This document shows, one piece after another, positions 35,986 through 41,732 of a DNA stretch of 62,789 bases. This DNA comes from Alistipes sp. GTDB lineage: Bacteria > Bacteroidota > Bacteroidia > Bacteroidales > Rikenellaceae. Position 1 is the stretch's first letter. Every line of letters starts with the position of its first letter. Under the pieces are notes generated by a model, which worked only from the letters and a program-made list of their open reading frames with translations, was not told where the DNA came from and ran no database searches. The stretch covers positions 1-62,789 of the forward strand of contig JAGCMF010000035.1 in assembly GCA_017646625.1 (NCBI GenBank). The letters run 5' to 3'. Both the position numbers and the translations under genes were made by a program.

Positions 35986-38937
35986 TTAATGCATCATTGG
36001 TGGACGGCCACCAGCAAATGGGCGTCTACCAGCACCCGAGGTGACATCCATGCCGTAGTCACTTGGATTCTGCGAACCATTCTTACCGAAGAAGCGGAGG
36101 TTATAGTTGAACTGAACGGTGAAGTAGCGACCAACAACGCTATTCCATGCATTCTGTGTATAACCACTACCCACGGTGCGAGCAAAGGCTGCATTCTGGT
36201 TCAACAGGTCGTTGACACCCACAAGCACCTCACCCTGCTGATTCTTAAAGAGCTTCTTACCGAGGTATATGTTACAGATGAGGTAGTCCTCGTTATAGTC
36301 GTTCGTAAAGCCTATATACTGGTTGTAGTTGACGGCAGCGGTGAGAGTAAAGCCCTGCCAGAATACCCACTTAAGAGTTCCCGATGCTGCATGGTTAAAG
36401 TACTGGTTCTTCGTACCTCGCGTAGCCAACGACTGACGAGCATCGTTATATGAGCCATTCCACTCGAGGGTGAAGTCGATATTCTCCGAGATATTACTAC
36501 CCAAAGAGACCTTGGCATCGTAGCTCATGTTGCTTGTGAAGTTGAGCTCATCGTTAATCATAGATGGAGTACGCGACCAACCTACACCAGCAGAGAGGTT
36601 AAGATTACACTTGATAGGGCTAATAGGGAAGCCATAGCTTATGTGAGTACGTAGATTGCGATATCCATTCATATTCTCATATGTAGAGTACTGCAATGGG
36701 TTATATTCCTGACCATCAATGATGATAGTATCTGGGTTGTAAGATATAGACTGACCGATGTAGTCCTGCGTAAACTGCGCCATAAACATCCACATGAAGG
36801 TGCGACCCTTCTCGATATTCGAACGCACATAGTGGAAGTTGATACGGTGGTTGTATGCCGACTTAAGAAGTGGGTTACCCTTGCTCAAGTACTGTGCATT
36901 CGACACATCGTAGATATCCTGAAGATTGCGAACATCGGGGTTCTGCGTGTATGAGCTTACAAAGAGACGTATCGAATTCTGTGGATTGAAGGCGACATTA
37001 GCCATCATGAAGTATGTCACATGGTCATAGCCACGCTTAATATCCTCGCCCTTAACTAGGCCATCGAGCACCGAGTGCTGGTAGTATACATTGGCGATGA
37101 AGGTGTTTCTATCCTTGGCATAGCGGAAGCCAGGACCTACCCTATGCTCCATGCTCACGCTATTTGTAAGCGACGAGAGTGATGGGTCGGGAGTAAGGCC
37201 CGCAGTAGAGAAATCACTACCTGTGATAAAGGCAGTCTTCTTGATATCCTGATCCTCGTAGTCGAAGCGATACTGGATGCTTACCTGTGCATTAGGCGCC
37301 ACAGGCTCGGTATATGTGAAGTTAGCATTTACATCCGTCTCCGACTGTGGCGCTGTAGATGCAACATAGCGCAACTCGGGATAGTACAACGCCGCCTCGG
37401 CATCGTACATAGTAGAGAGTGTAGAGAAGCTATTTGTCCACGACTTGGGCGTGTTACGTATCGAGTAACGACCATCAACAGTGATAGTACGACCTGGCTT
37501 ACCGAGTTTCACACGATACTGCAAGAACTCGCTAAAGCGCAACGCACGCGATGAACCCTGCGAACCATTAAAGAGCATATCATACTCCAAGCCCTTGCTC
37601 TCGGCAGTCTCGCCATACTGCTCGCCATACTGCTGGCTATAGGGGTCGTTACCCTGGAAGCTGAAGTTCGTACGCGACATAAGCGACATATTGTCGTTAA
37701 TCTTCCAGTCGAGGCGTAGGTTGAGACGATGGTTGAAGTTATGAGTCTCCGACTCACCCTCCTGGATGAGGTAGTCGTTAGGAGATGGTGACTCGTACCA
37801 CTTCTCCAAGAGACTCTTATTGCGAGTATTTGTGTCGTTAAAGAAGTATGAGCCATTGAGCTTCACCTTCTCGCCCTCGCCCCAAGTATCAGAATACTGA
37901 AGGCCTATAGAGCCTACGCGGGCAACACCACTCTGTGGGCGCACCATATACTGGCCTACACCACGACCACGACCCATGCCACCTTGGCCACCACCTGTCA
38001 CACCGAGGATATCCTCGAACGAGAAGTTCTGCTGGTTGACGTTGTTAAAAAGACCTATGACAGAGATACGGCTTGAGCCATGGAAGATGTTTACATTACC
38101 ACCCACGTTATACTTATGGTGAGATGTCACATCCGACAGCGTGGGATTATATTGTTCAGTATTATCAAAGCCCAGCTCCGTAGGTGAGCCGTCGATATCT
38201 GGCTGATATCCATAGCCGCCATATACCTTACCGAAGACACCCTGACGCATATGCGAGTGTGTGACGATGTTGATAGCCTTGTAGCCCTCACCATCATCCA
38301 TACCCGAGAACTCGGCATTATCCGAGAGCTTGTTAAAGACCTCGATACGATCTACAGCCTGTGCTGGAAGCGAGTTAAGAGCCGTAGAGACATCCTCGCC
38401 AAAGAACTCCTTGCCGTCAACAAAGATGCGTCTCACCTGCTCACCCTGCGCCTCTACCGAGCCGTTAGAGATTGTGATACCGGGCATCTTACGCAACAGA
38501 CCCTCAACATCGGCATCTGCAGCCACCCTAAATGCCGATGCATTGTATGCTACAGTATCGCCATTCTGCGACGTACGCAAAGCCTGCACCTCCTTAACAA
38601 CAGCCTCAATAGCCACAGCCTCGGGCTGCAACTCCAGAGTACCAAGGTCTACGTTTGCACCAACACGAACACTATGTGTCTGCGTAGCATAGCCGATGAA
38701 TGTGATGTTTACATCATACTCACCTGCCGCAAGGCCTGTAACGGTGATGGCACCCTCGGCACCAGACACCGAGTGACGACGGCTATCATTAGCCTTGTTC
38801 ACGACCTCCATGATGGCACCTATGATACCCTCCTTGGTCTCTGCATCGACAATCTTTGCCGATATCTTCGCCGACTGCGCCATGAGAGGCAACGACAAGC
38901 AAAGCATAACGATAATTGCTAATACTCTTTTCATCAT
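35986..38937 (-). CDS. Outer-membrane beta-barrel protein with CarboxypepD-like and plug domains
   Basis: 983 residues from the ATG at 38937 (38934 equally good); the frame extends to 39048, but that would start inside the predicted operator. Signal peptide MMKRVLAIIVMLCLSLPLMAQ, then a CarboxypepD_reg-like domain (KIVDAETKEGIIGAIMEVV, GEYDVNITFIGY), a TonB-plug-like part (RKMPGITISNGSVEAQGEQV, DGKEFFGEDVSTALNSLPAQ) and a long C-terminal beta barrel of the OMP_b-brl_3 kind. The end is Gly/Arg/Pro rich. No SusD neighbour, so it is not a SusCD pair. Preceded by paired LytTR-type boxes and by the His-rich gene. Confidence 0.9.
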   Translation of the reverse strand: MMKRVLAIIVMLCLSLPLMAQSAKISAKIVDAETKEGIIGAIMEVVNKANDSRRHSVSGAEGAITVTGLAAGEYDVNITFIGYATQTHSVRVGANVDLGTLELQPEAVAIEAVVKEVQALRTSQNGDTVAYNASAFRVAADADVEGLLRKMPGITISNGSVEAQGEQVRRIFVDGKEFFGEDVSTALNSLPAQAVDRIEVFNKLSDNAEFSGMDDGEGYKAINIVTHSHMRQGVFGKVYGGYGYQPDIDGSPTELGFDNTEQYNPTLSDVTSHHKYNVGGNVNIFHGSSRISVIGLFNNVNQQNFSFEDILGVTGGGQGGMGRGRGVGQYMVRPQSGVARVGSIGLQYSDTWGEGEKVKLNGSYFFNDTNTRNKSLLEKWYESPSPNDYLIQEGESETHNFNHRLNLRLDWKINDNMSLMSRTNFSFQGNDPYSQQYGEQYGETAESKGLEYDMLFNGSQGSSRALRFSEFLQYRVKLGKPGRTITVDGRYSIRNTPKSWTNSFSTLSTMYDAEAALYYPELRYVASTAPQSETDVNANFTYTEPVAPNAQVSIQYRFDYEDQDIKKTAFITGSDFSTAGLTPDPSLSSLTNSVSMEHRVGPGFRYAKDRNTFIANVYYQHSVLDGLVKGEDIKRGYDHVTYFMMANVAFNPQNSIRLFVSSYTQNPDVRNLQDIYDVSNAQYLSKGNPLLKSAYNHRINFHYVRSNIEKGRTFMWMFMAQFTQDYIGQSISYNPDTIIIDGQEYNPLQYSTYENMNGYRNLRTHISYGFPISPIKCNLNLSAGVGWSRTPSMINDELNFTSNMSYDAKVSLGSNISENIDFTLEWNGSYNDARQSLATRGTKNQYFNHAASGTLKWVFWQGFTLTAAVNYNQYIGFTNDYNEDYLICNIYLGKKLFKNQQGEVLVGVNDLLNQNAAFARTVGSGYTQNAWNSVVGRYFTVQFNYNLRFFGKNGSQNPSDYGMDVTSGAGRRPFAGGRPPMMH

Positions 38938-38974
38938 ATAATAGTTTTTTATTTTCATTGCACTTTTCGCTGCG

Positions 38975-38982
38975 CGAAAGTA
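38975..38982 (-). promoter_or_regulatory. -7 element of the outer-membrane protein gene
   Basis: Minus-strand TACTTTCG (one base off TAnnTTTG), start near 38968. No -33 TTTG at the right distance, as expected for an activated promoter. Confidence 0.5.
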
Positions 38983-39018
38983 ATATTTTAAATTGACATA
39001 TGCTACACAACGGCGGTG

Positions 39019-39048
39019 AAATGACAAAAAAGGGGGGTCAACCGACAT
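39019..39048 (-). promoter_or_regulatory. Paired LytTR-type boxes upstream of the outer-membrane protein gene
   Basis: Minus strand ATGTCGGTT (39048-39040), 12 bp, TTGTCATTT (39027-39019). The repeat distance is 21 bp, that is two DNA turns, which is the arrangement bound by LytTR-domain dimers. The proximal box ends 37 bp before the -7 element. Confidence 0.6.
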
Positions 39049-39102
39049 CCTCTATAATATAAAAGATTGAGTTGGGATGCTTGACACCCCAACTCATAAT
39101 CT

Positions 39103-39504
39103 CTAACGGCGGCCTGGAGGTGGAGGAGGCATACCAGGACCGTGTGGTCTGTCATCTCCATGAGAGCCGTGTGGTCCACTATGATGCTTACCTCCGTGGT
39201 GACCATCATGGCGATCATGGTGCTTACCATGAGGATGACCATGAGGGCGTGGCTTTGGTGGGCGCGGGCCCCTTCTATCCCTGCCATGGTGGCAGTCACC
39301 CTTGCCGTGGGGGCGACACTCAAAGGCGCAATAACCACAACCTCGGCCATTGTCACGTGGCGCACGAACATCTACAACAACGAAGCCATTATCGCCACCA
39401 ATACCGAATGATATGCCTACGGGACGACGTAGACCATCATTTGCCGAAGCACTGCCCACTGCTACTACAGAAAGCACAAGGGCTAAAAACATAATCTTTC
39501 TCAT
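39103..39504 (-). CDS. Exported His/Pro/Gly-rich protein
   Basis: 133 residues. Signal peptide MRKIMFLALVLSVVAVGSASA, then a short beta-type part (GISFGIGGDNGFVVVDV) with two Cys (GCGYCAFEC has three), and a tail from about residue 63 with 16 His, many Pro, Gly, Lys and Asp, ending GPGMPPPPPGRR. The tail can bind divalent metals such as Zn, Ni or Cu; that is a composition argument, not a family match. Preceded by LytTR-type boxes; 55 bp separate it from the outer-membrane gene's operator. Confidence 0.8.
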   Translation of the reverse strand: MRKIMFLALVLSVVAVGSASANDGLRRPVGISFGIGGDNGFVVVDVRAPRDNGRGCGYCAFECRPHGKGDCHHGRDRRGPRPPKPRPHGHPHGKHHDRHDGHHGGKHHSGPHGSHGDDRPHGPGMPPPPPGRR

Positions 39505-39543
39505 AGTCGTAAAATTTTAGGGTTGTAACTCTGTTTCCTGTTA

Positions 39544-39551
39544 CAAAGTTA
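39544..39551 (-). promoter_or_regulatory. -7 element of the His-rich protein gene
   Basis: Minus-strand TAACTTTG, start near 39537. It lies within a 10-bp inverted repeat (ggttgtaact / agttacaacc, 39514-39556) that may fold in the leader. No -33 element is seen. Confidence 0.55.
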
Positions 39552-39588
39552 CAACCCCAAGACGCGGTCTAATACTACACCCGCCACC

Positions 39589-39618
39589 AAACGACAATTT
39601 GCTACGGTGAAGCGACAA
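39589..39618 (-). promoter_or_regulatory. Paired LytTR-type boxes upstream of the His-rich gene
   Basis: Minus strand TTGTCGCTT (39618-39610), 12 bp, TTGTCGTTT (39597-39589), 21-bp repeat distance. The flanking word TTCACC is also repeated at 21 bp. The proximal box ends 38 bp before the -7 element. Located directly after the stop codon of the LytTR regulator gene. Confidence 0.65.
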
Positions 39619-40389
39619 TTAGACAAGGTGAACAGACTGAAGCCACTGCTTGAATTCTGGAACTCGGGCCTTCGAGATGATTATTCTCTCGGGTGTATCT
39701 ATACTTAAGTTTAGTGCCAGACGACTACCAAACCACACTGCTATATCCTTCACAGCCCTACGCGAGACTATAAACTGCCTATTTGCCCTGAAGAAACGAT
39801 CCGTGGGCAGCTGCTGGCTGAGAGCCTCGAGAGTCTTATCCACAGGATAACTATCACCCGTAAGTGTTGTCACGCTGACCTTCTCGGCAGAGGTATAGAA
39901 GAATGCCACATCGTCGATGCCCACAGGGATAATCTTATCCTTATACCTCACAAGCAGGGTCTGCACCCCACTCTGCACATCGGCAACCATGCGCGCCCTA
40001 TTCTGCCTCTGCGTGCCACGTTCAGCATCCGTGAGACGTTGCAGTTTATCCAGAGCACGCTGCAAATCCACCTCCTTAAAGGGTTTTAATAGGTAGTCTA
40101 TGCTATTTACCTTAAACGCCTCGAGGGCATACTGGTCGTAGGCCGTAGTAAAGATGATAGGTATATCTATATCGACACTCTGGAATATACGAAACGAGTC
40201 GCCATCAGCAAGATGGATATCCATAAATACAATATCGGCATCCACATCCTGACCAAAGAAGACTATAGACTCCTCTACGGACTCCAAGATAGCCACAACC
40301 TCCACATCGGGGATAAGCGACACCAGCATGCTACGCAGGTTAACAGCGGCAGCGGTCTCGTCCTCAACAATAACAACTCTCTTCATCAC
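39619..40389 (-). CDS. LytTR-family response regulator
   Basis: 256 residues. Receiver domain at 1-120: acidic pocket EDE near residue 11, phospho-acceptor Asp in DIVFMDIHLADG, Thr in IIFTTAYDQY and Lys in LLKPFKEVD. LytTR DNA-binding domain at about 150-250: VRYKDKIIPVGIDDVAFFYTS, RANRQFIVSRRAVKDI. It probably activates envelope genes. It overlaps the sensor kinase gene by 4 bp (ATGA), the standard coupling for such pairs. Likely targets are the two genes downstream, which carry paired boxes. Confidence 0.94.
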   Translation of the reverse strand: MMKRVVIVEDETAAAVNLRSMLVSLIPDVEVVAILESVEESIVFFGQDVDADIVFMDIHLADGDSFRIFQSVDIDIPIIFTTAYDQYALEAFKVNSIDYLLKPFKEVDLQRALDKLQRLTDAERGTQRQNRARMVADVQSGVQTLLVRYKDKIIPVGIDDVAFFYTSAEKVSVTTLTGDSYPVDKTLEALSQQLPTDRFFRANRQFIVSRRAVKDIAVWFGSRLALNLSIDTPERIIISKARVPEFKQWLQSVHLV

Positions 40390-41732
40390 TTAACATCAGG
40401 CATTTCAAGAGGAAGACGCACAACAAAGCGTTCCGCCTCATCAATAATCTCTATATCGCGCCCCGCAATGATATGCCAACGGTTACGCAGGTTATCAAGG
40501 CCAATGCCCGTAGATGGTTCAACATCGAGCTTCGGATGCTTCGGATTCTCAATCTCGAGCATGCCATCGACAGTGCGTATCGCGACATGTAATGGGTTCT
40601 TCGACGTGATGCTATTGTGCTTAACAGCATTGCCCAGGAGTGGTTGCAACGAGAGTGCCGGCAGCCTCCACAACGCATACTTATCATCTATATCGAAGTC
40701 GAAGAATAGCTTATCTGCATAGCGTATCTTGAAGAGGTAGGCATATGCCTCGGCAAAGGCTATCTCATCGCGTAGTGTCGTAGTGCCACTCTGCCCATTC
40801 TGTATTATATAGCGGAAGGTGTAGGAGAGCTGATCTATATACTCCAACGCACGTCTCTCATCCCCCTCCCTAACAAGCATAGCCAACGAGTTAAGCGAGT
40901 TGAAGAAGAAGTGTGGGTTTATCTGACCGACGAGCATATTATAGCGTGTCGACAAGTTCTCCGTCTTGAGCCTCTCGTTCTCCACCTCCATGGTCTGACG
41001 CTGACGCATAAGCATATATATACGCGCATAGAGGAGTGTCACAACAAGCATGAAGAGACACTTGGTGAGCACTATGAGGTATACGTTGTTATGTGGCTCG
41101 GCCTGGAAGAAGAAGACGATGCGCATGAAGCCATCACGGAACGACATGACGGGAGCAAAGTATATGCCCACAACAGAGATGAGCAAGACGATGAGCAGAC
41201 GACGTACAAACACCCTATTCGTATAGTTACCACTACGTGGCAAAATAGTGAGCAGCATCAATAGCACAAAGGAGATAAGGGCATAGTATACTATCTGCCA
41301 CACGAACTCCACGGTGCGACTTGGTCGGTCGTAGAGGGCATCAAAGTCGTAACTCTCGCCATTACGCATCTGCACATCATCCAGGCGCTTATGAGCACCC
41401 TGCATATACGAGGCATCACGACGATCCGAAGAGCTATCACGCGTAGTGAAGTGCAGATGGTCGCCATCGAGGAGCTTCATAGAACGCACCTGCCATGCAG
41501 ATACATATATACTATCCTGCGCGGCACAGTCGCACACTATGTAACCGTGCATGTCGGGCGAGAGGTGAAGAGTGCCGCTGTTGTGTTCATACTCCGCTTC
41601 ATCCTCATTACCTCGTTGATTCATACCATGCTCGGTTATTATCGGCACAAGGAGGTATGAGAAGTTCACAACGAGACTCAATACCACAGCAATAAGTGCG
41701 TGTAGAACTATGTTGCTCTTTTTCTTCATCAC
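40386..41732 (-). CDS. LytS-like sensor histidine kinase
   Basis: 448 residues. An N-terminal membrane helix (about 9-31), an extracytoplasmic region of about 110 residues with few family features, then four further membrane helices (about 143-240), a coiled linker, and the His_kinase domain with phospho-accepting His in GQINPHFFFNSLNSLAMLV. The ATP site includes LGNAVKHNS and TGIGLDNLRNRW. It would sense an envelope signal and phosphorylate the LytTR regulator encoded next. Palindromic element copy 3 lies upstream of its start. Confidence 0.92.
   Translation of the reverse strand: MMKKKSNIVLHALIAVVLSLVVNFSYLLVPIITEHGMNQRGNEDEAEYEHNSGTLHLSPDMHGYIVCDCAAQDSIYVSAWQVRSMKLLDGDHLHFTTRDSSSDRRDASYMQGAHKRLDDVQMRNGESYDFDALYDRPSRTVEFVWQIVYYALISFVLLMLLTILPRSGNYTNRVFVRRLLIVLLISVVGIYFAPVMSFRDGFMRIVFFFQAEPHNNVYLIVLTKCLFMLVVTLLYARIYMLMRQRQTMEVENERLKTENLSTRYNMLVGQINPHFFFNSLNSLAMLVREGDERRALEYIDQLSYTFRYIIQNGQSGTTTLRDEIAFAEAYAYLFKIRYADKLFFDFDIDDKYALWRLPALSLQPLLGNAVKHNSITSKNPLHVAIRTVDGMLEIENPKHPKLDVEPSTGIGLDNLRNRWHIIAGRDIEIIDEAERFVVRLPLEMPDVK

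Follow-up and report, generated by a model that had tools for sequence, protein, structure and literature searches.

A probable LytS/LytTR-type envelope regulon in Alistipes with 21-bp direct-repeat operators and a Rho-like kinase sensor domain

The gene cluster and its promoter arrays

Contig JAGCMF010000035.1 of an Alistipes sp. assembly (GCA_017646625.1), analysed here over its whole length of 62,789 bp and called the window, carries a LytS/LytTR-type two-component system on its minus strand together with two candidate target genes. The gene order, all on the same strand, is kinase, regulator, His-rich exported protein, barrel protein. The kinase gene (40386..41732) encodes a LytS-type sensor histidine kinase of 448 residues with four predicted transmembrane helices; it matches PF06580 at E 6.7e-22, and PF06580 is present in all 36 of the 36 orthologues. 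Its TGA stop has one base in common with the ATG of the response regulator gene (39619..40386), whose product matches the receiver domain PF00072 (E 8.7e-11) and the LytTR DNA-binding domain PF04397 (E 2.4e-19). The next gene (39103..39504) encodes a small exported protein of 133 residues, 16 of them His, with a signal peptide recognised by eye. The last (35986..38937) encodes an outer-membrane beta-barrel protein with Pfam matches to OMP_b-brl_3 (PF14905) and a CarboxypepD_reg domain. Called mechanically, the open reading frame of the barrel gene runs from 35986 to 39048 and extends upstream across its own promoter and operator; the start that gives a signal peptide lies at 38937.

An earlier note, made from the letters of this DNA, had described two TTGTCnnTT boxes in direct orientation upstream of the His-rich gene and two more upstream of the barrel gene. 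The four boxes lie where it placed them on the minus strand, TTGTCGCTT (39610-39618) and TTGTCGTTT (39589-39597) before the His-rich gene and ATGTCGGTT (39040-39048) and TTGTCATTT (39019-39027) before the barrel gene, with a start-to-start spacing of 21 bp within both pairs. Three of them begin with TTGTC, but the box at 39040-39048 begins ATGTC. As a complete site the TTGTCnnTT motif proved too short: the half-site learned from relatives is the 11-bp GKCGNTTSACC, and TTGTCnnTT corresponds to its left seven bases plus two bases upstream.

Described with the longer half-site, the pairing that had been proposed for both genes holds at the barrel gene. There, a distal half-site GTCGGTTGACC (39036..39046) and a proximal half-site GTCATTTCACC (39015..39025) precede the -7 element TACTTTCG (38975..38982), a TTCG variant, and the proximal one ends 32 bp before it. 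The His-rich gene, however, has an array of three half-sites: GTCTGTTCACC (39627..39637), which falls within the final codons of the regulator gene, GTCGCTTCACC (39606..39616), which overlaps the box at 39610-39618, and the proximal GTCGTTTGGTG (39585..39595), which ends 33 bp before the -7 element TAACTTTG (39544..39551). All of these features are on the minus strand, and neither promoter has a TTTG at -33, as had been noted before. The operator is interlocked with the end of the regulator gene in the window and in distant relatives as well; in many distant congeners (e.g. L065, L071 and L072; L and G numbers are our handles for loci and genomes) the regulator's TAG stop overlaps the first half-site (TTAGTCGTTTCACC). 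A hairpin at 39069-39095 in the window is separate from the operator.

Conservation, position and chance level of the arrays

The regulator was matched at E<=1e-30 in 119 of 121 same-genus genomes, at E<=1e-82 in 110 of them and at 1e-31 to 1e-65 in nine. From the 119 matching genomes we took 60 regulator loci, mostly top-ranked, comprising 28 close and 32 more distant ones. With the window included, 52 of the 61 loci have the barrel gene after the regulator, usually with a small exported gene in between. Half-site models were cross-trained, such that one relatedness group served for training and the other was tested, with the 99th percentile of dinucleotide shuffles as the threshold. Promoters before the barrel gene were scored in the 46 of 61 loci in which that gene was found at a distance of over 350 bp from the regulator stop; at the nine close and six distant loci left unscored it is absent or lies within 350 bp. 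The expectation that the box pairs would be conserved in relatives was borne out, with 45 of the 46 scored barrel-gene promoters above threshold, all 45 at exactly 21 bp (20/20 close, window included, and 25/26 distant).

Directly after the regulator gene, a pair exceeded the threshold in 50 of 61 loci, 31/32 in the distant group and 19/29 in the close group. The distant loci had 25 pairs at 21 bp and six at 22 bp, and in the close group the best pair was at 21 bp in 19/29, 17 of these above threshold. Ten close loci have their best pair at a spacing other than 21 bp. None of them shows the start of a small exported gene in the first 340 bp past the regulator stop, and two of the contigs stop after 275 and 415 bp. 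In two of the ten, L053 and L061, the small exported gene begins 345 and 460 bp off, beyond the scanned region. Where the small His/Cys-rich gene has been relocated (genome G041), an array precedes the gene at its new place too (L189). Outside the genus, a pair GTTTTTTCACC/GGCGATTCACC at 22 bp lies ~35 bp past the stop of a 50%-identical regulator in Parabacteroides goldsteinii (L136), so the half-site may be common beyond the family.

The position of the arrays relative to the promoter was evaluated in the 96 of 107 regions with a pair score above 15, counting as a -7 element any match to at least 5 of 6 letters of TAnnTTTG. In 93 of these 96 regions (48/51 after the regulator gene, 45/45 before the barrel gene), 31-33 bp separate the last half-site from the -7 element. 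Plain letter shuffles gave this distance at a frequency of 1.8% after the regulator and 1.5% before the barrel gene. A TTTG at -33 was seen in one of 95 regions (0/50 after the regulator, 1/45 before the barrel gene). Together, the distance of the last half-site from the -7 element and the lack of a -33 TTTG suggest that bound regulator stands in for the missing contact. In PMC6193735, LytTR operators are described as 9-bp repeats with gaps mostly of 12 bp, placed mostly 10-11 bp before the -35 element; those of Bacteroides have repeats and gaps of 11 bp each and lie 11 bp upstream of a promoter with TATCTTTG. As far as sequence goes, the geometry found here is that published LytTR activator layout, and the operators count as ordinary and well-conserved representatives of the LytTR kind. 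The arrays indicate that the published activator geometry also holds at Bacteroidota promoters that lack a -33 element.

At 23 of 45 barrel-gene promoters (e.g. L064-L071, L075, L094 and L095), a perfect inverted repeat of at least 7 bp has a right arm that overlaps the distal half-site and is mostly followed by T-rich sequence, and one stretch may therefore double as operator and as the small gene's terminator. No such inverted repeat was found at the other 22 of the 45.

The frequency of the pairs was examined in the window genome (1.87 Mb, 90.7% complete) and in 14 congeners hand-picked for completeness and spread. Genome-wide scans used degenerate patterns, and the weight matrix was applied to the window and to selected upstream regions. 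The exact pattern TTGTCNNTT-N11-13-TTGTCNNTT occurs once in the window genome and its reversed control not at all. The corrected pair, GKCGNTTSACC-N10-GKCGNTTSACC, gave six matches against two for the control in the window genome at <=3 mismatches, three inside the window and three outside, and 34 against five in the 14 congeners at <=2 mismatches. The claim that this spacing exceeds background frequency thus stands for the corrected pair, which also recurs before orthologous genes. Trained without the window's own sites and applied at a threshold of 16 to both strands of the 62.8-kb window, the weight matrix found three overlapping 21-bp pairs, all within the two arrays, and two pairs in total at the remaining spacings from 12 to 40.

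The shared spacing could be a chance outcome, or a by-product of terminators and of coding sequence, given that 23/45 distal half-sites overlap an inverted repeat and that one half-site in the window lies within regulator codons. This explanation has almost no chance of being right: the spacing and the -7 distance are exact in nearly all scored promoters, the arrays recur before unlinked genes, the reversed-pattern and shuffle controls contradict chance, and 22/45 of the barrel-gene promoters carry an array without the inverted repeat.

The predicted regulon and its regulator

The three pairs outside the window precede a lipoprotein gene together with a porin-like gene, a gene for an extracytoplasmic function (ECF) sigma factor (PF04542) and a gene for a small exported protein. 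The lipoprotein and the porin-like gene were named by eye and neither has a Pfam match, nor has the small exported protein. Orthology of the lipoprotein, sigma factor and small exported targets was confirmed by tblastn, and orthologues of these unlinked genes carry the site in some relatives. Of all 14 places outside the cluster in the congeners, four are before ECF sigma orthologues, three before the lipoprotein, three before the small exported protein, one before the relocated His/Cys-rich protein and one before a thioredoxin-like protein; the remaining two (L194 and L195) have no recognisable target gene. The lipoprotein, small exported and His/Cys-rich targets have a -7 element 32-33 bp downstream of the second half-site or of the place of a third. 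The thioredoxin-like gene (L190) misfits this spacing, with TATGTTTG 22 bp past the second half-site, and the five sigma-gene cases have no -7 element at the usual distance from the array.

The ECF sigma gene was followed further in 70 upstream regions, the 30 best-ranked and 40 lower-ranked of the 110 genomes having the gene. A 21/22-bp pair exceeded the shuffle 99th percentile in 42 of the 70, 29/30 of the closest and 13/40 of the distant ones. Between the array and the sigma gene, 26 of 37 aligned upstream regions (L197 3149-3417; L210-L236) contain a sigma54-like element, TGGCA-N6-TTG[C/T], with a promoter of the TTTG/TATCTTGC type after it. LytTR regulators lack an AAA+ domain. RpoN was not found in the window assembly and is present in 27 of 27 relatives, so the gap probably lies in the 90.7%-complete assembly; the missing RpoN was accordingly dropped as an argument against a sigma54 reading.

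The sigma-gene array, near a sigma54-like element and away from the usual -7 distance, could be taken to mean that an unrelated transcription factor reads the arrays, or that they mainly repress, and that the LytTR neighbourhood is incidental. The arrays are, moreover, predicted sites. Repressor sites usually overlap the promoter, unlike the arrays, which end 31-33 bp upstream of the -7 element. The activator layout described for LytTR regulators in PMC6193735 is likewise one of direct repeats spaced 21-22 bp and lying immediately before the -33/-35 region, and we regard a foreign factor or repression as highly improbable.

As to the extent of the regulon, the earlier note had grouped the kinase, the regulator, the His-rich protein and the barrel protein under one direct control. 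Conserved pairs uphold this for the His-rich and barrel genes, but no pair was found within 300 bp upstream of the kinase gene, and the predicted regulon is larger than proposed. By this criterion, autoregulation of the kinase-regulator operon was rejected.

Several observations weigh against direct control of these genes by the adjacent two-component system. No pair was found upstream of the kinase gene in any of 51 regions of 300 bp from the called start (for L070 the called start lies inside the gene, and the region scanned there is not the true upstream). The original model TTGTCnnTT-N12-TTGTCnnTT, loosened to two mismatches, was not enriched in its own genome (25 matches against 21 in the control); it was dropped as a genome-wide model for that reason and replaced by the half-site of the relatives. 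Two of the 14 congeners, G074 and G060, gave no corrected-pair match at <=2 mismatches despite having the regulator, and 27 of the 40 distant congeners have no above-threshold 21/22-bp pair before the sigma gene. Two close loci passed the threshold after the regulator gene at other spacings (L058 at 22 bp, L062 at 28 bp) and are loci without the target gene; these pairs may be chance matches. The window genome encodes three further LytTR genes, four in total. Finally, among 11 genomes without a strong regulator match, six had no pattern matches and five (80-85% complete) had one to four, together 13 against seven in the control. A 21-bp pair above threshold stands before the sigma gene in G008, G026, G035, G044 and G107, which likewise lack a strong regulator match. 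G107 has this weight-matrix pair yet no pattern match, and G085, also without pattern matches, has an 18-bp pair before the sigma gene. In G009 the regulator gene is probably fragmented, as its matches resemble cluster-type sites.

One alternative is that the arrays are LytTR operators whose main or shared binder is another LytTR regulator of the genome, such that the adjacent pair does not control all targets. The four LytTR genes of the window genome and the incomplete genomes that keep arrays without a strong regulator match would fit such an arrangement. However, the arrays adjoin this regulator in most loci examined, and the array-bearing genomes without a strong match are themselves incomplete (80-88%). 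In addition, G001, G002 and G015 have a single regulator of this type (at E<=1e-30; more distant LytTR genes are possible), yet pairs are present, before the barrel gene in L070, after the regulator gene in L080 and at both places in L071. A different main or shared binder is very unlikely in our estimate.

The Rho-like sensor domain and comparison with known systems

The sensor domain of the kinase is the unusual part of the system. Between the first and second transmembrane helices lies a predicted extracytoplasmic domain (41418..41579, minus strand) that is homologous to the RNA-binding (cold-shock/OB) domain of Rho. The Rho profile PF07497 was matched at E<=0.01 in 33 of 36 kinase orthologues, at best 6e-11. 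The window kinase itself stays below the curated cut-off, with 20.9 bits against 27, and its 24.4 bits in a six-frame genome scan fall short of it as well. Searched against the PDB, the domain alignment gave 16 matches, of which the top 13 were Rho (best 3.1e-8) and the other three had E values of 0.19 to 1. HHalign of the domain profile against the genome's own Rho gave a probability of 97.8. The predicted fold is of the OB/cold-shock type, and all 50 entries among the Foldseek matches listed for it were Rho. At the nucleobase-stacking positions corresponding to Rho F62, F64 and Y80, all 36 aligned orthologues have an aromatic residue or His, and 35 of 36 have Ser at the equivalent of Asp78.

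At L114, L124, L128, L129 and L130, related regulators are accompanied by related kinases with only a short loop where the Rho-like domain would be expected; the loop is confirmed for L114 and L124 and judged from the N-terminal stretch for L128-L130. In the last three, 21-bp pairs lie near the operon, which suggests an operator that persisted through gain or loss of the sensor. Both the loop-only kinases and their retained pairs would be consistent with a Rho-like domain that is a structural or dimerisation scaffold, with the signal perceived by the membrane helices or a partner, for instance the small exported protein. The aromatic or His residues kept at the three stacking positions in every aligned orthologue would be needless for a mere scaffold, and we consider this alternative a real possibility that falls somewhat short of an even chance.

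An order-wide search with the sensor domain matched, besides the window kinase, 69 of the other 246 genomes at E<=1e-10. We inspected 29 of these as loci; motifs or inspection by eye identified 28 as Rho proteins, and the motif test left L292, a 681-residue frame, unassigned. The other 40 matches are open frames of 405-669 residues. Among the 28 classified matches no Rho-like domain was found in a kinase outside the genus; only two other genomes of the family were among those searched. In the literature searched, as far as its accessible text extends, no description was found of a Rho-type or cold-shock domain as the extracytoplasmic sensor of a kinase; the nearest match, PMC7159879, concerns other systems in the part consulted. 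Likewise, no paper on such a system appeared in titles and abstracts on Alistipes and LytTR.

Considering the cluster, the operators and the sensor together, we find it highly likely that this LytS/LytTR-type two-component system directly activates a cell-envelope regulon. The kinase would receive a signal through the Rho-like domain outside the inner membrane and phosphorylate the regulator, which would then bind arrays of two or three direct GKCGNTTSACC half-sites 21 bp, or two helical turns, apart. This spacing would place the regulator molecules on one face of the DNA, and the bound regulator would substitute for the missing -33 contact from 31-33 bp before a TAnnTTTG-type -7 element. The predicted targets in the window genome are the His-rich exported protein, the barrel protein, the lipoprotein with the porin-like gene, the small exported protein and the ECF sigma gene. 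Phosphorylation, binding, activation as the direction of control and the adjacent regulator as the binder are what we infer from the arrangement. For this two-component system, which occurs across a common gut genus, the analysis predicts a regulon and supplies an operator whose sequence, spacing and position can be tested.

The signal is a matter for guesswork. Metal or envelope stress, guessed at in the earlier note, is made slightly more plausible by the sigma-factor and outer-membrane targets and by the small partner, which is a DUF4890 protein in four of four distant congeners scanned, above the curated cut-off in two. Those four gave one sub-threshold match each to Metal_resist and LTXXQ. 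The window's own His-rich protein has no Pfam match, nor has that of the close relative L046, and the Pfam scan did not place it in the LTXXQ/Spy/DUF4890 group. Our guess is that an envelope or metal stress response is the likeliest role. A bolder proposal, which we think unlikely, is that Alistipes relocated the Rho RNA-binding domain to the outer side of the inner membrane, where a histidine kinase uses it, with its stacking residues kept, as ligand-binding sensor, and that the system senses extracytoplasmic nucleic acid, nucleotides or another planar ring compound, remodels the envelope and induces the ECF sigma factor. If true, the Rho-like sensor raises the direct question of the domain's ligand.

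Among known systems, the LytTR Regulatory Systems (LRS), including the LRS-like operons of B. thetaiotaomicron and B. ovatus, share the direct repeats before the promoter. In PMC6193735 the LRS are characterised by a regulator without a receiver domain, paired with a membrane inhibitor, and by autoregulated operons. In contrast, the regulator in the window has a receiver, its partner is a kinase and 0/51 kinase upstream regions carry a pair, and we do not class the system with the LRS. The Rho N-terminal domain (PF07497) resembles the sensor in sequence profile, predicted fold and nucleobase-stacking aromatic positions. The sensor differs in lying between the first two transmembrane helices of a kinase, predicted to be outside the inner membrane, in having no Rho ATPase part and in the change of Asp78 to Ser. 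CpxAR-CpxP and ZraSR-ZraP are envelope and metal stress systems with a small exported protein. The resemblance to them consists of a two-component system with a small exported protein (DUF4890 in the four distant congeners) and of predicted sigma-factor and envelope targets, whereas the regulator family, the operator and the kinase sensor are unrelated and the window's small protein is without a Pfam match. BtsSR, YpdAB, ComDE and AgrCA are two-component systems of the LytS/LytTR kind, and it is with this kind that the window system belongs: it combines a receiver and LytTR domain in one regulator, a multi-helix PF06580 kinase encoded alongside and direct repeats at ~21-22 bp, about two helical turns, upstream of the target promoters. 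What sets it apart from them is the GKCGNTTSACC half-site, the predicted envelope and ECF sigma targets and the extracytoplasmic Rho-like domain of the kinase.

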